DNA of 42,844 nucleotides, from positions 1 to 42,844 of the forward strand of contig QHUQ01000207.1 of NCBI GenBank assembly GCA_003221985.1, in the 5' to 3' direction. The DNA is from Gemmatimonadota bacterium (lineage in GTDB: Bacteria > Gemmatimonadota > Gemmatimonadetes > Gemmatimonadales > GWC2-71-9). Positions 2,073-35,691 of this stretch are shown here, one piece after another. Position 1 is the stretch's first letter. The number at the start of each line of letters is the position of its first letter. The notes under the pieces are model-generated. The model had not been told where the DNA came from and did no database searches. It saw nothing but the letters and a program-made list of their open reading frames with translations. The translations under genes were made by a program, and so were the position numbers.

Positions 2073-4039
2073 CTATTTGACGAGTTCGAACACCAGCGGC
2101 GCGCCCGTCGGCGCGATGCGCACCAGCCGCCGCGGCGCCTGCTGGGTGACGTGCATGACCACCGGCAGCTGCATACCCGACAGCTCGAGGCGATAGGCCG
2201 GAAACGTTCCCGCCGGCACCGTGACATTCTCGACGCCCGCGACTTTCACGGTGACGACCTTGGACGCCCCTTCGCCCGACGAGAAGACGTTCAGGTTGAA
2301 TGTCTTTCCTGCATCGAGCGGCAGCGCGGCGAGCAACACCCCCAGCGCGTTATCGTCGATCGTGCCCGGGGGGGCGGTGGTGTCCACCGTGATCGGTTTC
2401 GGCGCGCCAGTGGGCTGCGGCGCCATCGCGGTCCCTTTGACGCGGCCATCGGCGTACGTCAAATGGATTTCGGTCTGCTGTCCTTGAACCATGCCGGTCT
2501 GATTGGTGCGCCGCATCGTGAGATCGGCGTTCAATACGACGGTCGATCGCTGTTGGAATGGGCCGATCGTCGTTGCTTCGGTATACACGATCGAATCCCC
2601 GGCGACATCGACCTTCGAGAGTTGTCCGCCATACACCGTGCCCTGGACCAGCGCCTGGAAGCTGTCGCTGCGCGTCACGATCTGGCTGCGGTCGAACGAG
2701 ACCGGACCGCCGGTGGGGTTGAGCTCGGCCGGATCGAGCGGCCGGCCCTCGATATCCACCAGGCGGACCGGCGCAATCGCCTTCAGCTTGTCGTACAGCG
2801 ACTTGGCGTCGCCGACGACGACGATCGTCAGCGCGTTGCGGCGAAACACCCGTTGCGCGGCGGCGCGCGCCCGCGTGCCGCTCACGCCCGCCAGGCGATC
2901 GCGATAGCGCTGCAGATAGTCGAAGCCAAGATCGAGCAGCCGGGCGGTCGTGACGACGCCGGCGATCTGGCGAGGCGTTTCGATCGTCAGCGGGAAGGAG
3001 CCCACCAGGAACCCCTTGGCCGCGACCAGCTCGCTGTCGGGAATCGTTTCGGTCCGCACACGATCGATCTGATGCAACAGCTCCGTCAACGCGCTGTCGG
3101 TGACTTCGGTGCGCCCCTCGAACGTCGCCTCCCAGTAACCGATGCCGCGGGTGCGGCGCAGCGAGGCATAGGAGCCGTACGTCCAGCTCTTCTGCTCGCG
3201 CAAAATCATGAACAGGCGCGAGTCCGAGCCGCCTCCCAGGACGTGGGCGGCGATGCGCGCCGCGTAGTAGCCGGTGTCGGTCGGCAGGAACGTCGTGTTC
3301 CCGATGACGATGTTCGATTGCACCGAGCCGGGCCGGTTCGCCAGGAGAATGTCGGTCGCGCGTTTGGCTGGAGCGGCGGGAGCCGGCGGCGTCGCAGCGG
3401 CTCCGCCACGCCACGAGCCGAATGCGCTGGCCGCGAGCTCGCGCGCACGCGGCAGCGTGATGTCGCCGGCCACGACCAGCAACGAGCCGCCCGGCCGGAT
3501 GCGCCGTGCGGCGAACGCCACGATGTCATTGCGCGTAACGGCCTTGTACGCCGCGACACTCGTGTTCCGGCCGTACGGATTGCGGCCGTAGATCTCCTTC
3601 TGGAACGCGCGCGCGGCGACGTTGTCCGGTTGCGACAGCTCGACCTCGAGCGACGAGAGGAACCGGGTCCGCGCCAGCTCCAGCTCCTGGGCGGAGAACG
3701 TCGACCGCCGGCTGACGTCGCCGAGCAGGGCAAAGGCCAGCTCGGCGTGATCGCTCAGCCCGTCGGTGGAGATGGTGAGGAAGTCGTCGCCGGCACTCGC
3801 CCCGATCGTCCCGCCCACCCCTTCGATTTCCGCCGCGATCTGGTCGGCGCTGGCAACGTCATGCCATTGGGGAGCGCGACATCCTGGAACGGCGGGAAGC
3901 GCACGGGCCGGAGCCGAGCGGCGCTCGGTGGCCGGGTTGGAAACGGCTCCTGGGCGGAAAGTGGGAACGTTGGAATGATGGAAAGAAGGACCAGCACCCC
4001 TTTCCATCGTTCCATCGTTCCAAGATTCTGGCGGTTCAT
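2073..4039 (-). pseudogene. M16 peptidase partner subunit with C-terminal beta-barrel-like domain, frame-disrupted
   Basis: The start ATG at 4039 overlaps the stop of the upstream M16 gene (ATGA). The first frame gives a signal peptide and FQDVALPNGMTL, the opening of an M16 domain. Near 3851-3856 the homology jumps to another frame beginning ASADQIAAEIEGVGG, which in relatives lies several tens of residues further on. A conserved block is therefore missing and the frame changes. The rest is clean: an M16 C-half with the R/Y motif LREQKSWTYGS, then about 200 residues resembling a DUF3108-type beta-rich domain ending in FELVK. The lost block would have held any zinc site, so it cannot be said whether this was the inactive partner. 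The signal-peptide region lies in an inverted repeat (3964-4021). The lesion may be an assembly error. Confidence 0.75.
3964..4021. repeat. Inverted-repeat hairpin in the M16-partner signal-peptide region
   Basis: Arms at 3964-3985 and 4000-4021 are complementary at 20 of 22 positions, separated by a 14-nt loop. Each arm is made of imperfect tandem GGAACGAT/GGAATGAT-type units. The element supplies most of the N-terminal codons of the minus-strand M16-partner gene (NLGTMERWKG followed by the hydrophobic stretch). Its architecture matches the in-frame hairpins in uracil-DNA glycosylase, radA and comF. Confidence 0.75.
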
Positions 4040-10106: not shown

Positions 10107-11134
<1,028 letters not shown>

Positions 11135-11145
<11 letters not shown>

Positions 11146-11184
11146 CCCGCATCTCGCATCCCGTTTCCCGTTTCCCGTTTCCCG
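11135..11184. repeat. Short tandem repeat spanning the thiolase start codon
   Basis: On the minus strand this is three GGGAAAC units followed by GGGATGC/GAGATGC/GGGATGC/GTGATGC units that run into the thiolase start codon and its first three codons. The GGGATGC unit is the one that builds the hairpin in the uracil-DNA glycosylase gene at 28926-29004. Only one arm is seen here, so no hairpin is predicted. It fills the whole gap between the thiolase and aldehyde dehydrogenase genes, and no separate Shine-Dalgarno sequence is evident. Confidence 0.7.
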
Positions 11185-12618
11185 TCATAGCCCAACCCAT
11201 ACGGTTTTCGTCTCGAGGTAACCGTCCAGAGCCTCTCGCCCGAGATCTCGGCCGAATCCCGATGCTTTGAAGCCGCCGAACGGCGCGCCGGAGTCGTAGA
11301 AGTTGTACGAGTTGATCCACACCGTGCCGGCGCGAATCGCTTTTGCCGCGCGATGGGCCTTCTGGAGATCCCTGGTCCAGATGCCGGCGGCCAAGCCGTA
11401 GATCGTGTGATTCGCGAGCTGCACGCCCTGCTCGAAATCGTCGAACGTGAGCACCGCCAGCACGGGCCCGAAGATCTCCTCGCGCGCAATCGTCATCTCC
11501 GGCTGCACGCCGTCGAAGACCGTGGCTTCCACGTAGTAACCCTTGCCGTTGGGTTTTGCCGCCCTGCCGCCAGCAACCAGAGTCGCCCCTTCGTCCAGAC
11601 CCTTTTTGATATAGGACAGCACGCTCTCCTGCTGCTTCTTGGAGACGAGCGCGCCGAGTCGCGTGTTTTTGTCGAGCGGATCACCGGGCGTCATCTTCTT
11701 CGCCCCTTCGGCCAGCTGCTCGATCACCTGCGCGTGCACCGATTCCTCGACCAGCAACCGTGAGCCGGCGGCGCAGACTTCACCCTTGCCGTAGAAAATC
11801 CCGGTCTGGGCGCCGCGCACGGCGGCCTTCAAGTCGGCATCCGCAAAGATGATGTTGGGACTCTTGCCGCCCAGCTCGAGCGTCAGCCGCTTGTTCGTCT
11901 CGGCGGCCAGCTTCATGATTTGGCGGCCGACTTCGGTGGATCCCGTAAACGAAATCTTGTCGACGTCGGGATGACGCACCAAAGCCGCTCCAGCGGTTGA
12001 ACCTCCTCCGGACACGACATTAAAGGCGCCCGCCGGCACACCGGCCTCGAGCGCGATCTCCGCGAAGAGCAGGGCGGTCAGCGGTGTCTCGGAGGCCGGC
12101 TTCAGGACGATCGTGCATCCGGCGGCGAGGGCCGGCGCGAATTTCCAGCTGGCGATGTTGAGCGGAAAATTCCACGGGACGATCGCCCCCACGACGCCGA
12201 TTGGCTCGCGCAGCGTGTAAGTAAAGAACGGACCGTCCACGGGGAGCGTGTCACCGACGATCTTGTCCGTCCAGCCCGCGTAATAGCGCAGCGTGTTGAT
12301 CGTCATCCCGATTTCGATCTTCGACTCGAACAGCGTCTTGCCGTTCTGCGCCGTCTCGAGCCGTGCGACCTCGTCCAGGCGCGCTTCCAGCAAATCCGCA
12401 GCCCGAAAGAGGATTCTCCCCCTCTTTCTGGCTGACATCTCCCGCCATGTTTGCGACTCAAAACAGGCTTTCGCGGCGCGCACTGCGTTGTCCACGTCCG
12501 CGGCGTCTCCCGCCGCGACGTCGGCGATAACCTCTTCCGTCGCCGGGTTGACCACGGGAAAGCGCTTCCCCGACGCCGCCGGCCGCCATTCGTTATTAAT
12601 GAAGAGGTCGGTCTTCAC
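11185..12618 (-). CDS. NAD(P)-dependent aldehyde dehydrogenase
   Basis: 477 aa, full length for the ALDH superfamily. The substrate-channel asparagine is in VPWNFPLN (N150), the cofactor motif is ISFTGSTEVG, the general-base glutamate is E248 in LTLELGGKSPN, and the catalytic cysteine is C282 in GKGEVCAAGSR. The C-terminal EEIFGPVLAV and APFGGFKASGFGRDLG are typical of the betaine/phenylacetaldehyde dehydrogenase branch. The gene overlaps the upstream crotonase by 4 nt. In box and paa pathways an aldehyde dehydrogenase (BoxD, or the ALDH part of PaaZ) oxidises the ring-opened semialdehyde, and this enzyme could fill that role. Alternatively it makes the aromatic acid from its aldehyde. The substrate is inferred only from context. 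Confidence 0.92.
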   Translation of the reverse strand: MKTDLFINNEWRPAASGKRFPVVNPATEEVIADVAAGDAADVDNAVRAAKACFESQTWREMSARKRGRILFRAADLLEARLDEVARLETAQNGKTLFESKIEIGMTINTLRYYAGWTDKIVGDTLPVDGPFFTYTLREPIGVVGAIVPWNFPLNIASWKFAPALAAGCTIVLKPASETPLTALLFAEIALEAGVPAGAFNVVSGGGSTAGAALVRHPDVDKISFTGSTEVGRQIMKLAAETNKRLTLELGGKSPNIIFADADLKAAVRGAQTGIFYGKGEVCAAGSRLLVEESVHAQVIEQLAEGAKKMTPGDPLDKNTRLGALVSKKQQESVLSYIKKGLDEGATLVAGGRAAKPNGKGYYVEATVFDGVQPEMTIAREEIFGPVLAVLTFDDFEQGVQLANHTIYGLAAGIWTRDLQKAHRAAKAIRAGTVWINSYNFYDSGAPFGGFKASGFGRDLGREALDGYLETKTVWVGL

Positions 12619-21580: not shown

Positions 21581-21608
21581 GTAGGGGCGCAGCATGCTGC
21601 GCCCCTAC
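21581..21608 (-). terminator. Palindromic terminator, second copy
   Basis: A perfect 28-nt palindrome whose 24-nt core is identical to 15528-15551, with an A-rich left flank, giving stem plus T5 on the minus strand. It lies between convergent genes ending at 21565 and 21629 and can act on both. Confidence 0.8.
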
Positions 21609-27072: not shown

Positions 27073-27570
27073 CCCCGCGGTTGGTCGTCCTTTCCGCGCC
27101 ATCGGGCGGTGGGAAGACGACGATCGCAAAGACGGTGCGGGATCGTTATCCGAATCGGTTCGGCTTTTCCGTGTCGGCGACGACTCGCAAGCCGCGACCG
27201 GGTGAGCAGGATGGAGTCGATTATCACTTCTGGACGCCAAGGGCGTTCCTGGACGGGGTGAAGCAGGGACAATTCCTGGAGCACGCGGAGTACGCGGGTG
27301 AGTTGTACGGCACACTGAAACGGGATGTGCAGACTTCAGCGGCGGCTGGAAACCGCGATCGAGGAATTGGGTCACGCGCCGTCATTCACGCGATGGATCA
27401 GGAATGATGATCTCGACGAGGCTGTCGGTGCCGTAGTCAAGACAGTTGACGCTAGCCCTGAGAAGCTTTGGCGAGATAAGCATGACTTTGCATGGCTAAA
27501 TGGTTATTTACATGGTCTCCAACTCGAGCGACAACGACTCTACGATAAGCTGCACCAACAGAAAGGCTGA
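27069..27570 (+). pseudogene. gmk: Guanylate kinase, frame-disrupted
   Basis: Guanylate kinase phosphorylates GMP to GDP and is essential. The start is GTG at 27069. The P-loop LSAPSGGGKTTIAK, the GMP-binding TTRKPRPGEQDGVDYHFW and LEHAEYAGELYGTLKRDV are intact. At about 27327-27336 the frame shifts; homology resumes in another frame with LQRRLETAIEELGHAPSF and NDDLDEAVGAVVKTVDAS, the gmk C-terminal region. The core LID/CORE segment containing the DIEVQGA motif is missing. The second frame continues for about 35 residues (SPEKLWRDKHDFAWLNGYL) that I do not recognise as gmk. In the usual yicC-gmk-rpoZ order. Confidence 0.85.
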
Positions 27571-27789: not shown

Positions 27790-28843
27790 TGCCGTTGCCC
27801 GGCCGTCACGTCGTGCTGGGCGTGTCGGGCGGAATCGCCTGCTACAAAAGCTGTATCCTGGCGCGCCGGCTGACCGAAGCGGGCGCCACCGTAGACGTGG
27901 TGCTCACCGCGGCGGCCGCGGAGTTCGTGCGCCCCCTGACGTTCGAAGCGTTGACCGGACGCCCCGTCCTTACTTCGCTGTGGGAGCGCGGTCGTGCGCT
28001 GGCGCACGTCGATCTCGCCAAGGATCCCGATCTCGTCATCATCGCTCCCGCCACCGCCCATCTGCTCGCGCGCGCGGCGATGGGGATGGCGGACGACCTG
28101 CTCACGGCGCTGCTGCTGGCGCGCCCCGATCGCCCGGTGCTCGCCGCGCCGGCCATGAACGACGCGATGTATGCCAATCCGGCGACCACGGCGAACATCA
28201 CGGCCCTCACCCAGCGCGGCTGGCAATTCATCGGCCCGGACATCGGCGCGCTCGCGGAGGGGCCGAGCGAGCGGCCCGGCCGCATGAGCGAGCCCGAGGC
28301 GATCTTCGCGGCGGCCGAGCGTCTGCTCGGCGATCCGCACAAGAGCAAATGGTCGGGGAAGCGGGTCGTCGTGACCGCCGGCCCGACGCGTGAGCATCTC
28401 GACCCCGTGCGTGTCATCACGAATCCGTCGAGCGGCCGGATGGGCTAACCACTGCGGACGCCCTCATCATGAGTGCGGCGCCGGCCGATTACCGGCCCAA
28501 GAGCCCGGCGGCGAAGAAGCGCGCCCGCGCCAACGGCCCATTGACCGTGGAGCTGGAAGCGACGCCCGACATCCTCGGCAGCCTCAAGCGCCCCAAGCGC
28601 ATCATCGTGGTCGGGTTCGCGCTCGAGACGGGGAACGGACTCGCCAATGCGCGCTCCAAGATGCAGAATAAGGCGCTCGATTTCGTGATCCTGAATGACG
28701 CCACTGAGCCCGGCGCCGGATTCGAGGTCACGACCAATCGCGTGACGATTCTGGGACGCAACGGTACGCAAGTCGACTTGCCGCTGCTGCCCAAGCGCGA
28801 CGTGGCCGAACGAATCCTCGACGTGGTGGAAGAAGCGCTTTGA
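27789..28843 (+). pseudogene. coaBC: Bifunctional phosphopantothenoylcysteine decarboxylase/synthetase, frame-disrupted
   Basis: Coenzyme A biosynthesis, essential. The CoaC flavoprotein half is complete: [34 protein letters not shown] and [15 protein letters not shown]. The usual active-site cysteine loop reads [12 protein letters not shown], without a cysteine; I am unsure how unusual this is. The CoaB half begins [27 protein letters not shown] and then stops at 28448. Homology resumes in another frame with ADALIMSAAPADYRPKSPA and VGFALETGNGLANARSKMQNK. The roughly 45 residues normally between are missing at about 28441-28449. The final frame ends at 28843, overlapping the next start. Confidence 0.88.
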
Positions 28844-29625
28844 CTGACGCGCGGGCTCTGGCAATCGAATATCTGAAACAGCAGCGGCTCCTGGGTGGGG
28901 ATCCCGTAATCCTGCCTGAACAGCCGGGATACGAGATGCGGGATGCGGGATGCGTGGACGCCGTGCCCGTCGTTACGCATCCCGCATCTCCCATCCCGCA
29001 TCCCGATCTGCCGCCGTCAGGTCTCAGTTTCGATCCACCGTCGGCCGATTTGTTCGCCACCGATCCTCTCCAGCAGACGAAGAGTCTCGAGGCCGTCGCG
29101 CAGTTAATCGCGGCCTGTCGCAAGTGCAAGCTGTGCGAGGGCCGCACCAACACCGTGCCGGGCGAAGGAGCCGCCACCGCCCGCCTCGTCGTCATCGGGG
29201 AAGGTCCCGGACGCACCGAAGACGAGACGGGGCGCCCGTTCGTCGGCCGGGCCGGGGAGCTGCTCACGAAAATCCTCGAGGCCATCAAGCTGCCGCGCGA
29301 GCAGGTGTTCATCTGCAATGTCGTGAAATGCCGGCCGCCCGAGAACCGCCTGCCGCAATACGACGAAATCGCGGCGTGCCTGCCGTACCTCTACCGCCAG
29401 ATCGAGCTGGTCAAGCCGAAAGTCATTCTGGCGATGGGCGGGACGGCCGCGCAGAGCCTGCTTAGCACCAAACAATCGTTAGGCGCGCTCCGGAATCAGG
29501 TGCACCGCTTCCGCGGCATCCCCGTGGTCGTGACCTACCATCCGGCCGCGCTGCTGCGCAACCCCAACTGGAAGAGACCAACCTGGGATGACGTCCGTAT
29601 CGCCGCCCGCCTCCTCGACGACTGA
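28840..29625 (+). CDS. Family-4 uracil-DNA glycosylase (Fe-S) with in-frame repeat insertion
   Basis: 261 aa from a TTG at 28840 (TTGA overlap with coaBC). It removes uracil from DNA. Motifs: CRKCKLCEGRTNTVPGEG (first Fe-S cysteines), VVIGEGPGRTEDETGRPFVGRAGELL (family-4 motif), ICNVVKCRPPENRLP (further cysteine ligands) and VTYHPAALLRNP. The N-terminal linker between the first helix (ALAIEYLKQQRLLGGD) and the catalytic domain contains MRDAGC and HPASPIPHP, encoded by a near-perfect hairpin of GGGATGC units (28926-29004). The insertion keeps the frame and avoids the fold. The glycosylase domain appears intact. Confidence 0.92.
   Translation: MTDARALAIEYLKQQRLLGGDPVILPEQPGYEMRDAGCVDAVPVVTHPASPIPHPDLPPSGLSFDPPSADLFATDPLQQTKSLEAVAQLIAACRKCKLCEGRTNTVPGEGAATARLVVIGEGPGRTEDETGRPFVGRAGELLTKILEAIKLPREQVFICNVVKCRPPENRLPQYDEIAACLPYLYRQIELVKPKVILAMGGTAAQSLLSTKQSLGALRNQVHRFRGIPVVVTYHPAALLRNPNWKRPTWDDVRIAARLLDD
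28926..29004. repeat. In-frame hairpin of GGGATGC units inside the uracil-DNA glycosylase gene
   Basis: Arms at 28926-28954 and 28976-29004 (29 nt each) are complementary at 25 of 29 positions around a 21-nt loop. Each arm is four imperfect 7-8-nt units (GGGATGCG, GAGATGCG). It is translated as about 26 residues in the N-terminal linker. Confidence 0.85.
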
Positions 29626-30991
29626 GCCATACGCCGGCCGGCAGACGCCCTGGAGCAACGAGGCCGAGCAAGCCGTCTTAGGCGCGATGATGCTCGACCA
29701 GGACGCGGCGCTCAAGGCCGCCGAGATCCTGGACGACAGCATGTTCTATCGCGAAGGCCACCGGCTCCTGTTCCGGTCGATGATGTCGCTGACCGAACGC
29801 GGCGACGTCATCGATCCCGTGACGCTGCGCGACGAGCTGAGCCGGCGCGGCGACCTCGATCGGGCCGGCGGGATGGAGTACATCGCGGCGCTGATCGACG
29901 TGGTCCCCACCGCCGCGAACGTCGAGCACCACGCCAAGATCGTGCGGGACAAGGCCGTGCTGCGCCGCCTCGTGGAAGCGGCGACCGGGATCATCCAGGA
30001 CATCTACGAAGGCCACGGCACGGCGGGCGAGGTGCTCGACAACGCCGAGCACCGGGTGTTCCAGGTGGCGCAATTCCGCCGTGCCGAAGAGTTCATTCGG
30101 ATCAAAGAGCTGATCTGGCCGACGATGGAGCGGATCGAGCAGCTCCAATCGGGAGCGGGCTCGGTCACCGGGGTTCCCAGCGGATTCGTCGATCTCGACC
30201 GTCTCACCGCCGGGTTTCAGCGCTCCGAGCTGATCATCCTCGCCGCCCGTCCCTCGATGGGAAAGACGGCCCTGGCCCTGAACATCGTCCAGCACGCCGC
30301 GATCGAGCACAACACCCGCGTCGCTTTTTTCTCGATCGAAATGTCGAAGGATTCCCTCGTGCAGCGGCTGCTGTGCTCGGAAGGCCTGGTCGATGCTCAG
30401 CGCCTGCGGCGTGGCCAGCTGCGCGATGACGACTATCCCAAGCTCGCCCGCGCGGCGGGCTTGCTCGGCACGGCGCCGATCTGGATTGACGATTCCGCCG
30501 CGCTCACGCCGCTGGCGATGCGCTCGAAGGCACGCCGGTTGAAGGCCGAGCACGACATTGCGCTCGTGATCGTCGACTATTTGCAGCTGATGCAGGGTCC
30601 CGGCGACGCCGAGAATCGCCAGCAGGAGATCTCCTACATCTCGCGGTCGCTCAAGGCGCTCGCCAAAGAGCTCGACGTTCCGGTCGTCGCCATCTCGCAG
30701 CTGTCCCGGGCGCCTGAGCAGCGCGGCGGGGAGCATCGCCGCCCGCAGCTCTCCGACCTCCGCGAGTCGGGCGCCATCGAGCAGGACGCCGATGTCGTCT
30801 GCTTCATCTACCGGCAGGAGTTCTACGACGGGCCGGTCGACCCCAAGACGAACGAGAGCATCGAGGGCCTCGCCGAAGTGATCGTCGGCAAGCAGCGCAA
30901 TGGCCCGACGGGGACGGTGAAGCTGCACTTCAAAAAGGAATACACGCGCTTCGACAACTACACGGCGCGCGAGGCTCCGGTCAGTGTCTAA
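29588..30991 (+). CDS. dnaB: Replicative DNA helicase DnaB
   Basis: 467 aa; ATG at 29588, overlapping the glycosylase 3' end by 38 nt (a later start is possible, since the first ~20 residues are Ser/Pro-rich). The N-terminal helical DnaG-interaction domain begins NEAEQAVLGAMMLD. The RecA-like domain has Walker A ARPSMGKTALALN, FFSIEMSKDSLVQRLL, Walker B LVIVDYLQLM, AISQLSRAPEQR and the C-terminal VGKQRNGPTGTVKLHF. It unwinds DNA at the fork as a hexamer. Normal length, no intein or break. The next gene (radA) overlaps by 8 nt. Confidence 0.96.
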   Translation: MTSVSPPASSTTEPYAGRQTPWSNEAEQAVLGAMMLDQDAALKAAEILDDSMFYREGHRLLFRSMMSLTERGDVIDPVTLRDELSRRGDLDRAGGMEYIAALIDVVPTAANVEHHAKIVRDKAVLRRLVEAATGIIQDIYEGHGTAGEVLDNAEHRVFQVAQFRRAEEFIRIKELIWPTMERIEQLQSGAGSVTGVPSGFVDLDRLTAGFQRSELIILAARPSMGKTALALNIVQHAAIEHNTRVAFFSIEMSKDSLVQRLLCSEGLVDAQRLRRGQLRDDDYPKLARAAGLLGTAPIWIDDSAALTPLAMRSKARRLKAEHDIALVIVDYLQLMQGPGDAENRQQEISYISRSLKALAKELDVPVVAISQLSRAPEQRGGEHRRPQLSDLRESGAIEQDADVVCFIYRQEFYDGPVDPKTNESIEGLAEVIVGKQRNGPTGTVKLHFKKEYTRFDNYTAREAPVSV

Positions 30992-32333
30992 AGGCAAGTC
31001 GGTGTTTCGCTGCACCGAATGCGGCGCGGACCAGCCGAAGTGGGGCGGGCGGTGTGATGCGTGTGGCGCGTGGAACTCTTTGATCGAAGAGCCGATTGGG
31101 CGGTTAAGCGGTTCGGCGGTTAGAGGCCTTCCAACCGCCAAACCGCCAATCCGCCTAACCGACCTGAAGGGTGAGGCGGTGGCGCGCTGGAAGACCGGCC
31201 TCGCAGAATTCGACTTCGTGCTGGGCGGCGGGATCGTCCCAGGCTCCGTCACGCTCGTCGGCGGCGAGCCCGGCATCGGCAAGTCGACCCTACTCATGCA
31301 GTGCGCCGCGCGACTCGAGAGCCAGGGCGTCGCTACGCTCTACGTCTCCGGCGAGGAATCGCCCGATCAGCTGCGCCTGCGTGCCGATCGCCTCGCCGAG
31401 GACGCCGGCGCCATTCACGTGCTCGGCGAAACGCGCCTCGAAGCAATTCTGCATTATGCCACCGAGCTCAAGTCGAGCGTCGTACTGCTCGATTCGGTGC
31501 AGACCACGTACACCGACGAGCTCGAGGGCGCACCCGGCAACGTCGGCCAGGTGCGCGAATGCGCCGCCCGGCTGATGCGCTTCGCTAAAGAATCGGGGCC
31601 CGCCGTCCTGCTCGTCGGGCACGTCACGAAGGGTGGAGGAATCGCGGGGCCCAAGACGCTCGAGCACATCGTCGACACGGTGCTGTACTTCGAAGGCGAA
31701 ACGACGCTCGATCATCGCATCCTGCGGGCGGTGAAAAACCGCTTCGGCTCGGTCGATGAGATCGGCGTGTTTCGGATGACGGGGGCGGGGCTCGAGCCCG
31801 TCGCGAACCCCGCGGCGGCATTCCTCGCCGGCCGCAGCACCGGCGCGTCCGGCTCCGCCGTCACCGCGCTGATGGAAGGGACGCGCCCCATGCTCGTCGA
31901 GATCCAGGCGCTCGCGTCGAAGGCGGGCTTCGGGACGCCGCAACGCGTGGCGACCGGCCTCGATCATCGGCGCCTGGCCCTGCTGCTCGCCGTGCTGGAG
32001 CGCCGCGGTGGCCTGCCGTTCGGGAATCTCGACGTCTTCGTCAACGTCACGGGCGGCGTCCGTCTCATCGAACCCTCGACCGACCTTGCCGTCCTTGCCG
32101 CCCTCGTCTCCACGGTGCACGATCGTCCCGTGCCCGCGGACGCGCTCTTCCTGGGCGAGGTGGGACTGGGTGGTGAGATCCGGCCGGTCGCAGGCGTCGA
32201 ACGGCGTCTCGCCGAGGCTGCACGCCAGGGCTTTCGCAGGGTGTTTTTATCGAGTCGTTCGAAAGGGAGTAAAGATCTCGAGGTGATCGGGCTGGAGGGA
32301 ATCGGTGAGCTCGCCCGCCGACTTGCAGCCTGA
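30984..32333 (+). CDS. radA: DNA repair protein RadA
   Basis: 449 aa from a GTG at 30984. The N-terminal four-cysteine zinc finger is CTECGADQPKWGGRCDACG. The RecA-like ATPase has Walker A GGEPGIGKSTLL, VVLLDSVQT and the RadA-specific KNRFG motif (VKNRFGSVDE). The C-terminal Lon-like domain carries LDVFVNVTGGVRL-type sequence and FLGEVGLGGEIRPV. It drives branch migration in recombination repair. The linker between zinc finger and ATPase (GRLSGSAVRGLPTAKPPIRL) is encoded by a hairpin of GGCGGTTA-like units (31094-31160), an in-frame insertion of the same kind as in the glycosylase and comF genes. Confidence 0.95.
   Translation: MSKGKSVFRCTECGADQPKWGGRCDACGAWNSLIEEPIGRLSGSAVRGLPTAKPPIRLTDLKGEAVARWKTGLAEFDFVLGGGIVPGSVTLVGGEPGIGKSTLLMQCAARLESQGVATLYVSGEESPDQLRLRADRLAEDAGAIHVLGETRLEAILHYATELKSSVVLLDSVQTTYTDELEGAPGNVGQVRECAARLMRFAKESGPAVLLVGHVTKGGGIAGPKTLEHIVDTVLYFEGETTLDHRILRAVKNRFGSVDEIGVFRMTGAGLEPVANPAAAFLAGRSTGASGSAVTALMEGTRPMLVEIQALASKAGFGTPQRVATGLDHRRLALLLAVLERRGGLPFGNLDVFVNVTGGVRLIEPSTDLAVLAALVSTVHDRPVPADALFLGEVGLGGEIRPVAGVERRLAEAARQGFRRVFLSSRSKGSKDLEVIGLEGIGELARRLAA
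31094..31160. repeat. In-frame hairpin of GCGGTT units inside radA
   Basis: Left arm 31094-31126 and right arm 31127-31160 are complementary over about 33 bp with few mismatches and essentially no loop. Each arm has three to four imperfect GGCGGTTA-type units. It is translated as about 22 linker residues between the zinc finger and the ATPase domain. Confidence 0.85.
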
Positions 32334-33027
32334 CGTCGGCGTCGTCGTCGTCGCAGCGGGGGCGGGCGTGCGGGCGGGGCCCGGCGAGCCGAAGCAGTTT
32401 CGCCCCATCCTTGGCGTGCCGATGCTGCTCCGCGCGCTGCGTCCGTTTACCGGACACCCCGAAGTGCGCCAGGTGATCGTGGCGCTGCCGCCCGGGTACG
32501 CCGAGCGTCCGCCCGAATGGCTCGGCAAACTGCGCGGCGATCGGTTGCGGCTCGTGCCGGGCGGTGCGCAGCGCGCCGATTCGGTGCGCGCGGGGCTCGA
32601 CGCGCTCCCTGCCGACAGCGCGATCGTTCTCGTGCACGACGCCGCGCGCCCCTTCGTCAGTCGCGGCACGATCGACGCCGTGATTGCGCGTGCTCGCGCG
32701 GGCGTCGGCGCGGTCGCCGCCGTGCCGACGTCGGACACACTCAAAGAAGTCGGCCCGCACCAGCCTACGCCGCGCGTCGCGCGGACCGTGGATCGGGAGC
32801 GCATCTGGCGGGCGCAGACGCCGCAAGGATTTCCCCGGCAGATGTTGCGCGACGCCTACGCCCAGCTGCCCGGAACCGCCAACGGCGGCGCACCGAGCGA
32901 TGATGCGGAAGTGTGCGAGCGCGCGGGGTTCCCGGTGGAGCTGATTCCCGATTCACCGTACAACTTCAAGGTCACCACCGCCGACGACTTCCGGATCGCG
33001 GAGGCTTTCGCGCGTGAGTTGCGTTGA
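32305..33027 (+). CDS. ispD: 2-C-methyl-D-erythritol 4-phosphate cytidylyltransferase
   Basis: 240 aa from a GTG at 32305 (overlaps radA by 29 nt; a slightly later start is possible). It transfers CMP to MEP in the non-mevalonate isoprenoid pathway. Nucleotide-binding VVVVAAGAGVRAGPGEPKQF corresponds to the AAGxGxRxxxxxPKQ motif. VPGGAQRADSVRAGL, VHDAARPFV and RAQTPQGF, SDDAEVCERAG and the C-terminal FKVTTADDFRIAE are all canonical. The next gene starts in a TTGA overlap. No ispF is adjacent. Confidence 0.95.
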   Translation: MSSPADLQPDVGVVVVAAGAGVRAGPGEPKQFRPILGVPMLLRALRPFTGHPEVRQVIVALPPGYAERPPEWLGKLRGDRLRLVPGGAQRADSVRAGLDALPADSAIVLVHDAARPFVSRGTIDAVIARARAGVGAVAAVPTSDTLKEVGPHQPTPRVARTVDRERIWRAQTPQGFPRQMLRDAYAQLPGTANGGAPSDDAEVCERAGFPVELIPDSPYNFKVTTADDFRIAEAFARELR

Positions 33028-33677
33028 ACGGGCTCCCGTTCCAGTCGGATTCCGATATTGCCACTGCAATCCCGCAGGTGGTGCAGCACCTGGGACGCGG
33101 GGGCTTGCTCGCTTATCCCACAGAGACGGTCTACGGCCTCGGCTCGCGCGTCGTGCAGGAGGACGTCGCCGCGCTGGCCGCCCTCAAGGGGCGGTCGGCC
33201 ACCAAGCCCTTCCTTTTATTGATCAGCGACCGATCGATGGCTGAATCGCACGGGCTCGCCTTCAATGCGTCCGCGGATGCGCTGGCGCGCGCGTTCTGGC
33301 CCGGGCCGCTCACGCTCGTGTTACCGGGAGGCTCGGGCCGGCTCCCCGACTTACTGCGCGGTCCCGACGGCGGCATCGCCGTGCGCTGGACGTCGCATCA
33401 CGCGATCGCGCGACTCGTGGCGGCGCTCGGTTCCCCGCTCACCTCCACGTCCGCGAATTTGCCGGGGCAGCCGCCCGGTCCCGGCGCGGACGCCATCGCG
33501 CGCGACTTCGCGCCGGCGGTGAAGAAGGGCCAGCTGCTGGTGCTCGACGGCGGCGTGTTGGGGAACCGGCCGCCATCGACCGTGGTTGACTGCACCAGGC
33601 CACGAGCGCAGATCGTCCGCGAAGGAACGCTCAGCGTCAACGAGCTGCGACGCGCCGTCGGCCGACTCGCACCATGA
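33024..33677 (+). CDS. tsaC: L-threonylcarbamoyladenylate synthase (TsaC/Sua5/YrdC)
   Basis: 217 aa from a TTG at 33024. It makes threonylcarbamoyl-AMP for the t6A37 modification of ANN-decoding tRNAs. Signatures: LAYPTETVYGLGSRV, LKGRSATKPFLLLI, FWPGPLTLVLPG, VRWTSHHAIARLV and SPLTSTSANLPG. The length matches the YrdC domain alone, without the extra Sua5 domain. It overlaps ispD by 4 nt and the following phosphatase by 4 nt, so it is in the same operon. Confidence 0.93.
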   Translation: MNGLPFQSDSDIATAIPQVVQHLGRGGLLAYPTETVYGLGSRVVQEDVAALAALKGRSATKPFLLLISDRSMAESHGLAFNASADALARAFWPGPLTLVLPGGSGRLPDLLRGPDGGIAVRWTSHHAIARLVAALGSPLTSTSANLPGQPPGPGADAIARDFAPAVKKGQLLVLDGGVLGNRPPSTVVDCTRPRAQIVREGTLSVNELRRAVGRLAP

Positions 33678-34153
33678 GCAAGAACGTTCTCTTTGTCTGC
33701 ACCGGCAATATCTGCCGCAGCCCGCTGGCCGCAGCGCTGCTGGAGCGCGCCGTACAGTCACGCGGCCTCACGGACGTAACCGTCACTTCGGCAGGAACGG
33801 GGGCTTGGGACGGGGCGCCCGCTTCTGAGGGCGCCTATCTTGTCGCTCTCGAAGGCGGGCTGGATCTTTCCGGCCATCGCGCGCGCCTCCTCACACGGGA
33901 GCTCGTCGAACAAGCCGATCTCATTCTCACGATGGCCCGGCACCATCGCGCGCGCGTGGACGAGCTCGGCGGAGAAGGAAAGGTCTTCGTGCTGGGAGAA
34001 TACGCGGGCCGCGAGAGCAACGACTCCGAAGTGAGCGACCCATTCGGCGGGCTGATCGACGTCTATCGCGACACCTATGCCGAACTGGACACGCTCGCCA
34101 CGGCCGTCGCAGATCGCCTAGCCGCCGAGAGCAAGCGTGGAGATCAGCGCTAA
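33674..34153 (+). CDS. Low-molecular-weight protein tyrosine phosphatase
   Basis: 159 aa. The catalytic P-loop CTGNICRSPLAAAL follows VLFV at the N-terminus (C-x5-R), and the general-acid aspartate is in VSDPFGG near residue 123. The usual size. Members dephosphorylate tyrosine- or arginine-phosphorylated proteins or small phosphoesters; the target is unknown. It is adjacent to the tsaC gene, a common pairing, and overlaps aroE by 17 nt. Confidence 0.93.
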   Translation: MSKNVLFVCTGNICRSPLAAALLERAVQSRGLTDVTVTSAGTGAWDGAPASEGAYLVALEGGLDLSGHRARLLTRELVEQADLILTMARHHRARVDELGGEGKVFVLGEYAGRESNDSEVSDPFGGLIDVYRDTYAELDTLATAVADRLAAESKRGDQR

Positions 34154-34973
34154 GACGCGGCTGTTCACGGTCATCGGCGACCCGGTGGCCCATTCGCTCT
34201 CGCCCGCGATGCACAACGCCGCTTTTCGCGCGCTGGGATTAGACGCCGTGTACGTCGCCTTGCGCGTGCCTCCCGTACCCCCCGAGGCGCTGCGCGCCGT
34301 ACTGGCAATGCAGGCCGCGACCGTCGGCGCCGGCAACGTGACCGTCCCGCACAAGGAAGCAGTCGAAGGATTCGTCGCGCGGAAAACGGATGTCTGCGCC
34401 CGGGTCGGCGCGTGCAATACGTTCTGGACAGAGGACGGGGGAGGGCTGGTCGGCGACAACACCGATGTGTTCGGGGTGGCTCGGGCGCTCGACCAAATCG
34501 GCGTTGCGCAAAAAGGAGAACGGTGGCTCGTGATTGGAACCGGTGGGTCGGCGCGCGCGACGGCCGTGACCGCCGCTGACCGCGGCGCCACGCTGTTCGT
34601 GCGCTCGCGCGATGGCGCCCGCGCGCAGGCGTTCGCCACGTGGGCGAAGGGTATCGGCGTGGCGGCCAGTGTCGCTGACGGCCCGGTCGAAGTCGACGTG
34701 GCAATCAACGCAACGCCACTGGGTCTCGCCGGTCACGATCCGCTACCGATCGACCTCAACCACATTCCGGGCGTGCAGCGAGCGCTCGATCTCGTGTACG
34801 CGCCCGGTGAGACTCGGTGGGTCCACGCGCTCCGCGAACGCGGGATCGAAGCCGCGGATGGGCGCGAGATGCTGGTCCAACAGGGCGCCGCCGCGTTCGG
34901 ACGGTTTTTTCCCGGCACGGCGGCGCCGAAAGAAGTCATGCGCGCGGCAGTCTCACGTGCGCTCCGCGTTTGA
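34137..34973 (+). CDS. aroE: Shikimate dehydrogenase
   Basis: 278 aa from a GTG at 34137. It reduces 3-dehydroshikimate with NADPH in the shikimate pathway. Substrate-binding GDPVAHSLSPAMHNAAF, catalytic lysine in GNVTVPHKEAV and aspartate in VGDNTDVFG, then the nucleotide-binding loop VIGTGGSARATAV. INATPLGLAG and the C-terminal MLVQQGAAAFG are also present. Complete. Overlaps the phosphatase gene and, at its 3' end, the comF start. Confidence 0.95.
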   Translation: MEISAKTRLFTVIGDPVAHSLSPAMHNAAFRALGLDAVYVALRVPPVPPEALRAVLAMQAATVGAGNVTVPHKEAVEGFVARKTDVCARVGACNTFWTEDGGGLVGDNTDVFGVARALDQIGVAQKGERWLVIGTGGSARATAVTAADRGATLFVRSRDGARAQAFATWAKGIGVAASVADGPVEVDVAINATPLGLAGHDPLPIDLNHIPGVQRALDLVYAPGETRWVHALRERGIEAADGREMLVQQGAAAFGRFFPGTAAPKEVMRAAVSRALRV

Positions 34974-35691
34974 GCAGCTCCTCCTTCCAGCGGAGTGCCT
35001 GCTGTGTCACGCCCTGCTGAGCCAGCGCGACGCCAACCGGCTCGTCTGTCCCGTGTGCCGGCAGCGGTGGCGGCCGGTGCGGCCACCCTGGTGCGAGCGC
35101 TGCGGGCAGCCGGAGCCGCATTTCGGTCCCTGCCGGCTGTGCACCGACTGGCCGGCGGCGTTGACAGGGGTGCGCTCCGCGGTGTGGCTCGACCAGAACG
35201 CGCGCCCGGCGGTCCACGCACTCAAGTACGGCGGCTTGCCGCGGATCGCCGACGACCTGACGGCCGTGATGGCGCAGCTGCGCCCTCCCAGCAACGGACC
35301 GTCGGTCTTGATACCTATTCCCCTCGCCACGAAGCGATTGCGCCAGCGCGGCTACAACCAGAGCGAAGTCCTGGCGCGCGCGCTGGCCCGACAATGGCGG
35401 ATTCCCGTACTTGTGACGTTGCTTGTCCGCACGCGCGAGACGCCGACGCAAACGGCGTTGACACCGGAGACGCGTCTGGCGAATGTGGCGGGGGCGTTTG
35501 GAGTGCGAAATGCGAAATGTGGAATGCGAAATTTCGCATTTCGACTTTCGAGTTTCGAATTGATCCTTGTGGACGACGTTTTCACGACCGGTGCCACGTT
35601 AGCCGAAGCAGCGAGCGCGTTAGAGCAGGCCGGCGCGACACGAGTCATGGGCGTAACCTTCGCCCGCGCGGCAATTCCAGACTTCACCTAA
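34957..35691 (+). CDS. comF: ComF family protein / phosphoribosyltransferase-like, with repeat insertion
   Basis: 244 aa from a GTG at 34957 (17-nt overlap with aroE); the reading frame is open further upstream but that part lies in aroE. The N-terminal zinc-binding cysteine pairs are [25 protein letters not shown] and [33 protein letters not shown] and the PRPP loop [18 protein letters not shown] are typical of ComF, which takes part in DNA uptake for transformation. Between [10 protein letters not shown] and LILVDD lie about 20 residues ([18 protein letters not shown]) encoded by a hairpin repeat (35501-35562), right before the PRPP motif. Confidence 0.9.
35501..35562. repeat. In-frame hairpin of GCGAAAT units inside comF
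   Basis: Arms 35501-35531 and 35532-35562 (31 nt) match at 22 of 31 positions, with the 8 bp at the loop side perfect (GCGAAA/TTTCGC core) and no real spacer. Units are GCGAAATG-like. It is AT-richer than the surrounding gene. Translated in frame just before the PRPP-binding loop. Confidence 0.8.

Follow-up and report, generated by a model that had tools for sequence, protein, structure and literature searches.

Why do conserved genes of a soil bacterium carry inverted repeats whose two arms are each built of several short tandem units, and what keeps the arms alike when the units themselves change? The question is posed by contig QHUQ01000207.1 of a Gemmatimonadota bacterium (assembly GCA_003221985.1), of which the whole 42,844-nt stretch analysed here is called the window. 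A preliminary description drawn from its letters alone had reported four inverted repeats with multi-unit arms, in the genes for a uracil-DNA glycosylase (UDG), RadA and ComF and in the leader of an M16 gene; all four are present and are the elements that we scored in the window. We found that the basic object is a convergent pair of arrays of about 30 nt, 0 to about 440 nt apart, with the G-rich arm first on both strands, and that at fixed sites in related genomes both arms change unit family together. Gemmatimonadota soil bacteria hold many such array pairs in and between conserved genes, and the joint change of the two arms from species to species points to a copying process that rewrites parts of proteins. 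The window elements and their host genes are as follows.

28840..29625, plus strand: family-4 uracil-DNA glycosylase, host gene (profile above curated cut-off)
28925..28955, plus strand: UDG linker, left G-rich array, 7-nt units GGGATGC (repeat and detector scans)
28975..29005, plus strand: UDG linker, right C-rich array, GGGATGC family inverted (repeat and detector scans)
30984..32333, plus strand: radA (sms), host gene (profile above curated cut-off)
31093..31124, plus strand: radA linker after the zinc ribbon, left array, 8-nt units GGCGGTTA (detector)
31130..31161, plus strand: radA linker, right array (detector)
34957..35691, plus strand: ComF-like host gene (comF model matched, score below its cut-off)
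35506..35531, plus strand: comF left array, 7-nt units GCGAAAT, upstream of the phosphoribosyltransferase motif
35532..35557, plus strand: comF right array
3854..4039, minus strand: 5' portion of the M16 gene, read in the same frame as the leader; the remainder (2076 to about 3854) is in a different frame
3957..3985, minus strand: M16 leader array, 8-nt units of the GGAACGAT family (left arm in plus-strand coordinates)
4000..4028, minus strand: M16 leader partner array

The arms typically hold about four units of 7 nt (UDG, comF) or 8 nt (radA, M16) rather than the 7 to 12 nt first proposed, and the unit sequence does differ among the four loci. The UDG arms are 31 nt each and 87% complementary, with the catalytic domain beginning downstream of both arrays; the comF arms are 26 nt each, 77% complementary and without a loop. 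The elements of UDG, radA and comF are translated through without loss of frame, and the earlier placement of the elements in linkers or a leader was right. The M16 element, at 3957-4028, falls outside the interval to which all four had been assigned. The M16 identity passes the Pfam threshold, and the array pair codes for most of an apparent signal peptide. Its leader reading frame is open from 4039 and the frame shifts in the window after about 3854, so that only the leader can be judged there.

Comparison beyond the window used a detector that requires two complementary arms, both periodic with one common period of 5 to 13, applied to the window and 80 related loci (RadA relatives; 1,317,461 bp in all). 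These relatives belong to Gemmatimonadota or its subgroups, one being labelled just 'bacterium', and the nearest eight are 93-97% identical. Genome comparisons rest on G001-G011, the draft genomes of loci L001-L010 and L013. After merging of hairpins nested in one another, 63 distinct hairpins were obtained, of which 61 have more G than C in the left arm. Four units are present in 30 of 52 period-7 arrays and 16 of 20 period-8 arrays. The compact elements span 47-134 nt, and their units are unrelated between elements.

The architecture first described, n units followed by n inverted units around a small or absent loop, holds, but the small loop is merely the short-spacing case: arrays of the identical kind also lie 54-442 nt apart, flanking native sequence. 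What separates the arrays is native sequence where it can be judged: in RsmB it is the ferredoxin-like domain and in an acyltransferase the E3-binding domain, and in LigD and FtsK the pair sits in the linker separating two domains. We abandoned a pure hairpin framing when GGGATGC arrays proved to bracket native sequence at distances of up to 430 nt. Orientation is strongly biased, with neighbouring arrays of equal period within 600 nt arranged + - in 13 cases (12 of the same family), - - in 2 and - + in none, and GGGATGC-family neighbours within 600 nt arranged + - in 25, - - in 2 and - + in 1. The gaps of these 25 pairs are 13-36 nt (11), 54-94 nt (10), 211-231 nt (3) and 430 nt (1). In 496.5 kb of G003, 9 of 10 neighbouring array pairs are of the same family, versus 109 of 652 distant pairs. 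All four window hairpins lie within genes (comF was overlooked by our rough gene caller), and on G003 contig C87 the same caller placed 5 of 18 hairpins wholly and 1 mostly within genes, the rest lying outside or at gene edges. A dense cluster occurs in L268 (G009 contig C89, 388-2376), where eight GGGATGC arrays, including the rarA pair, occupy 2 kb in the order + - - - + - + -.

We then asked what happens to the two arms when the unit changes. In RsmB, both arrays are present in 10 of 11 genomes, about 210 nt apart, and each pair is of one family, with seven families in total (assigned by eye): GGGATGC in G001, G009 and G010, GGGGACG in G002 and G003, GGGTGTC in G011, GGGGCTN in G005, GGAGCAC in G004, GGAGCCG in G006 and GGGAAAC in G007, while G008 has the left array alone. 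Across the 11 genomes in the test, complementarity of an array to its own partner was 19.6 versus 10.2, a difference matched in 0 of 20,000 permutations. RarA gave a similar result over 7 of 8 loci, with arrays about 95 nt apart (19.1 versus 12.1; 59 of 20,000 permutations). RsmB and RarA loci were located by tblastn, and the RarA of G006 (68% identical) was left out as a judged paralogue. At six short-gap sites, 37 hairpins gave 20.6 versus 9.9 (0 of 5,000), in a sample biased by having been selected as hairpins. That test kept two-armed hairpins with a score of at least 12, a period of 7 or 8 and periodicity of at least 0.65. It excluded radA of G001, G002 and G011; UDG of G002 and G006-G010; M16 of G006, G007 and G011; comF of G003 and G004; DUF4159 of G001 and G004-G007; and the M24 peptidase of G002, G004, G007 and G011. 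M16 of G009 and G010, the M24 peptidase of G003 and comF of G008 were taken into it from the merged hairpin list. The eleven close genomes thus constitute a natural experiment, in which rsmB carries seven families at the same two places flanking a domain, matched in 10 of 11, and the likeness of inverted-repeat arms becomes a directly testable question.

Different units are also seen at the sites found in the window and at further leaders. The UDG linker carries GGGATGC in the window and G001, GGGAAAC in G004, GGGCGGAT in G005, GGAGCCA in G003 and G011 and GGGAGCC/GGGAGTC in G006; G002 and G007 have palindromes like repetitive extragenic palindromic (REP) sequences, G008 and G009 mixed remains, and G010 no clear pair. 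The left arm of the L001 UDG element mixes families. At radA, two-armed 8-nt hairpins are present in 9 of 12 sequences, with GGCGGTTA in the window, G004 and G008, GGCGGATC in G003 and G007, GGTCGGAC in G005, GGCGGTCG in G010 and others in G006 and G009; only the left array is clear in G001 and G002, and the element is weak in G011. Among seven genomes with full data for comF, the unit is GCGAAAT in the window, GCGGAAT in G007, G008 and G010 and GCGGAAC in G009, and G003 and G004 have none. The DUF4159 leader (nine genomes) forms hairpins of GGCGGTTG in G003, GGAACGAT in G002, GTCGGACC in G009 and GGGATGC in G010, has a right array only in G005 and G006 and a weak element in G007, and lacks one in G001 and G004. 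The M24 peptidase leader (ten genomes) shows six hairpins of several families and four cases with the left array only, and DUF1080 has a hairpin in G003 and G006 and lacks one in the seven other genomes whose 5' end is readable. By eye, the pair encodes or brackets the apparent signal peptide in M16, DUF4159 and twin-arginine-type leaders. In the UDG linkers of L002 and L007, palindromes of the form ACCCCGG...CCGGGGT fill the place where other species carry arrays, and a palindrome of this form lies beside a Y1 gene in G001 (L156 1431-1456); the linker seems to be one permissive site occupied by two kinds of element.

The preliminary description took the units to be specific to each locus and suggested that snap-back synthesis makes hairpins from local repeats. 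Arms do match within a locus and differ among loci, as that account would have it, but the same families turn up at unlinked loci and in different species, far in excess of what a reversed-pattern control yields. Doubling the window's UDG unit gives GRGATGCGRGATGCG, which has 21, 2, 2, 5, 0, 5, 0, 0, 38, 42 and 1 matches in G001-G011 respectively (overlapping matches inside one array being tallied separately), and the reversed pattern has 0 in all 11. Order-wide, the doubled unit occurs in 34 of 151 genomes with up to 55 matches, compared to 8 genomes and 22 matches (13 in one genome) for the control. Other window units return elsewhere: GGAACGAT in DUF4159 of G002, GCGAAAT in the M24 leader of G006 and GGGATGC in DUF4159 of G010, whose hairpin has both its units and its first loop bases in common with the UDG hairpin of the window. 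In G003, 13 groups account for the 47 arrays of a 496.5-kb sample; seven contain at least two arrays, and the biggest spans 11 loci. Because the units belong to dispersed families common to unlinked genes and species, hairpins of local repeats are not the origin; locus-private units are ruled out by this recurrence, and we regard a locus-by-locus snap-back origin as extremely unlikely. What survives of the original suspicion is that some copying process keeps the arms alike.

One family extends further, with three tandem ATTGCGG units found in 50 IMG/VR stretches versus 2 for the reversed pattern. These stretches have GC contents from 0.47 to 0.72, so the family is probably not limited to one lineage. 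Two IMG/VR contigs, L300 and L317 (GC 0.47 and 0.50, far below that of the window), carry twelve and eleven ATTGCGG-family arrays respectively on about 13-14 kb, several of them as tight + - pairs. By eye, most 8-nt units (radA, M16 and DUF4159, across genomes) fit GGNNGGNN, two 4-nt halves both starting GG, and many 7-nt units fit GGNNNNC.

Could such elements arise by chance, from base composition or through faulty assembly? At the middle detector setting (score 14, periodicity 0.70), 4 elements were found in the window and 26 in the 1,317,461 bp, compared to 0 in two dinucleotide shuffles of each, and a setting stricter on mismatches gave 23 real and 1 shuffled, so that shuffle matches at working settings number 0 to 1. 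The 26 elements have periods of 7 (n=13), 8 (n=11) and 5 (n=2). Twenty lie in the window and ten of the eleven closest relatives (L001, L003-L010 and L013; L002 alone had none at this setting), and the remaining six are single elements in L017, L030, L034, L044, L045 and L068. Codon shuffles of the host genes regenerated an element in 0 of 300 (UDG), 3 of 300 (radA) and 0 of 300 (comF) cases. Tandem lags in 616 kb of G003 make periods 7 and 8 prominent: 27 arrays at lag 7, 13 at lag 8 and 16 at lag 14, a multiple of 7, versus six, seven and six at lags 6, 9 and 12 (multiples of 3), three at lag 15 and one each at lags 4, 5, 10, 11 and 13, with one at lag 9 and one at lag 11 after shuffling and 0 otherwise. 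Some observations do lean toward chance or artefact, in that the laxest setting yielded at least one match in 27 of 200 window shuffles (28 in all, versus 4 real), two of the 18 hairpins on G003 C87 (periods 9 and 12) look compositional, and the window has assembly-like losses elsewhere. Assembly error is an unlikely source, since elements occupy identical sites in records from different assemblies, and the recurrence of elements at many other loci disposes of the idea that they are confined to the first four. For the class as a whole the chance or artefact reading is refuted, and we give it next to no credence.

A different account is that the arrays are mobile, an enzyme acting in trans (Y1/RAYT-like, for REP-associated tyrosine transposase, or other) inserting arrays or pairs, so that unit families are element families re-inserting at permissive sites. 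The families are indeed dispersed and patchy among species, the hairpins of the window's UDG and G010's DUF4159 agree in units and first loop bases, some sites are empty in relatives (DUF1080, comF), and Y1_Tnp (PF01797) is present in 10 of 11 close genomes. However, that domain also occurs in 14 of 30 other Gemmatimonadota (and in 0 of 3 further genomes), and G007 lacks it yet has arrays. Of the 19 Y1 matches, 12 loci were examined, and no tandem-unit hairpin lies in their neighbourhood (about 1.5 kb). The sequence between arrays is native gene, up to hundreds of nucleotides, and no target duplication was seen, though no systematic search for one was made. Mobilisation by RAYT/Y1 enzymes is accordingly unsupported. 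The reverse transcriptase domain RVT_1 was found in 0 of 11 close draft genomes and 2 of 22 genomes overall, and as far as tested neither Y1 transposases nor reverse transcriptases explain the arrays. We consider insertion of mobile elements an unlikely source of the pairs.

Selection for pairing would account for arms that remain complementary over the long term despite unit change, if they folded into a functional structure in DNA or RNA, or served as a binding site, with compensatory change preserving complementarity. Four-unit G-rich arrays could form quadruplexes, as the available text of a Xanthomonas study reports in vitro for the units of that genus (PMC4692102). Such selection fits poorly with RsmB arms about 210 nt apart around a folded domain, with host genes that are unrelated, with the absence of one arm or the entire element in some species, and with variant units that are not matched one to one in unbiased pairs. 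On balance this seems to us quite improbable.

The explanation that we favour, and think probable, is a genome-wide 'library' of G-rich arrays that leaders, linkers and gaps between genes tolerate, and whose arms are kept alike by turnover of units together with template switching from one inverted arm to the other. What we observe directly is that the arrays are dispersed, prefer four units, have a polarity and switch family at orthologous sites, with the arms staying matched through the switches; from this we infer the mechanism. Slippage or unequal exchange would spread variant units within an array, and a site would acquire new families by exchange with arrays at other loci. The partner array would then be realigned by a quasipalindrome-type correction, in which replication switches template from one inverted arm to the other, in steps of unit size and across distances of 0 to about 440 nt; polarity may reflect the nascent G-rich strand being the one that folds back. 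Template switching is reported to homogenise inverted-repeat arms, coding DNA included, in the portions of two studies available to us (PMC8794818, PMC8604942). Arrays would persist where tolerated, in signal peptides, interdomain linkers, loops and intergenic gaps, some now supplying coding sequence, and families in the pool would replace one another through time, much as in a satellite 'library'. The mixed L001 UDG arm looks like an intermediate, as does one further array in the window:

11133..11185, minus strand: solitary intergenic hybrid array that joins two families; its minus strand reads GGGAAAC units, then GGGATGC units

Several observations weigh against the library and template-switching explanation. 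An array's own partner was best or tied in just 7 of 11 cases for RsmB and 4 of 7 for RarA, partly because sister species have a common family, and control windows within the RsmB domain showed a small effect of the same sign (7.1 versus 6.3; 239 of 20,000). The order of unit variants was not mirrored across the arms of 14 pattern-found GGGATGC pairs (z -0.19), which speaks against clean whole-arm copying; it was mirrored in 59 short-gap hairpins (z 4.93), a biased value because those hairpins were selected for complementarity. One pair without variant units, of 74 or more, was not used. Single-armed arrays occur, and polarity is weaker in the IMG/VR ATTGCGG stretches (+ - 13, - - 6, - + 4, + + 3). 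Switching was not observed as it happened, and for exchange between loci the common families are our sole evidence. A bolder proposal, which we hold to be doubtful, is a dedicated, undescribed bacterial process that writes or rewrites paired G-rich four-unit arrays flanking a DNA segment. It would take its unit from a changing genome-wide pool, put the G-rich strand in front and revisit given sites in the course of evolution; concerted editing of linkers and signal peptides in essential proteins would result, with no reverse transcriptase involved.

Comparison with known systems draws on the parts of the cited papers that were accessible. Arrays of GGGAATC in Xanthomonas and GGGGA(C/T)T in Nostoc (Rehm et al., 2015, PMC4692102) resemble ours in being G-rich heptamers with four units preferred and genome-wide dispersal, and Xanthomonas also has convergent pairs (70 and 75). 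At shared gene borders, two species are reported to differ in array length and sequence, and the arrays have no known function (PMC4692102). In those parts of the report, one unit family per organism is described, compared to the 13 groups that G003 shows in 496.5 kb (47 arrays); Xanthomonas arrays are 89-93% intergenic, whereas ours appear to include many coding sites; Nostoc has few pairs; the 8-nt class is a feature of the Gemmatimonadota arrays; and two-arm switching, found here, does not appear there. The P6b stem of the Nostoc tRNA-Leu intron (trnL), with its Class I and Class II heptamers (Kaasalainen et al., 2015, PMC4476775), is likewise a 7-nt-repeat stem at a fixed site, in which, as here, the repeat class has been replaced repeatedly and independently among lineages. 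As far as that account goes, it concerns one intron site, a required stem and two classes, in contrast to the numerous unrelated sites and families found here, with arms separated by as much as hundreds of nucleotides. Geobacter metallireducens (PMC2700814) has four tandem heptanucleotides GGGACCG in 49 copies within and between genes and a separate class of four octanucleotides, comparable to our 8-nt class; the accessible sections take them as putative regulatory elements and do not describe convergent pairing or switching.

Quasipalindrome correction (Monttinen and Loytynoja, 2022, PMC8794818; Abraham and Hazkani-Covo, 2021, PMC8604942) is alike in that one inverted arm is copied from the other, and is known in RNA stems and yeast coding DNA according to the excerpts at hand. 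Arms are alike in this sense at RsmB and RarA (0 and 59 of 20,000 permutations). The excerpts concern single mutations in existing stems, whereas here whole arrays change family and stay matched at about 95-210 nt. The resemblance to Rickettsia palindromic elements (PMC10969869) suggested in the preliminary description extends to palindromic repeats tolerated in frame in unrelated protein genes; membership fails because ours have no conserved family sequence. They measure 52-100 nt in compact form, whereas the available text describes families of about 150 bp with a conserved peptide. GTAG/CGTC REPs and RAYTs (PMC3733652), short dispersed palindromes found in the same genomes as the arrays, are described in the accessible text as sharing a conserved stem and a conserved tag, the GTAG types also being linked to a transposase, and the arrays seem not to be of that kind. 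A perfect 28-nt palindrome starting GTAG, of REP type and distinct from the arrays, lies at 21581-21608 of the window, and a near-identical one flanks a Y1 transposase gene in G006 (L160 1138-1173 and 1888-1937), forming a REP/RAYT pair.

Heptamer arrays and convergent pairs have thus already been noted in a few bacteria, and no explanation for them was found in the literature surveyed, in so far as its text was accessible. Given the Xanthomonas pairs and the class-changing Nostoc stem, the Gemmatimonadota arrays are a variant of a known but unexplained phenomenon. No earlier report in Gemmatimonadota was found in the open-licence PMC literature, nor did we find descriptions there of genomes with many families, of 8-nt units in such pairs, of this many coding sites or of concerted fixed-site switching over a whole domain. 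Our results suggest that DNA-level copying rather than protein selection can set linker and signal-peptide sequence in conserved genes, and they call for caution, as array-encoded peptides may be mistaken for conserved protein features.

The only known RNA family in the window is a single tRNA. Compared to L002, L003, L004 and L006 (and L001 at most of the places), where the sequence is continuous, the window is shorter by about 120-205 nt at five places (about 22421, 23128, 26655, 27319-27335 and 28447-28454), which look like closed scaffold gaps or assembly loss. One of these losses breaks the coaBC frame at 28448, and the M16 gene is short of about 50 codons after 3854.

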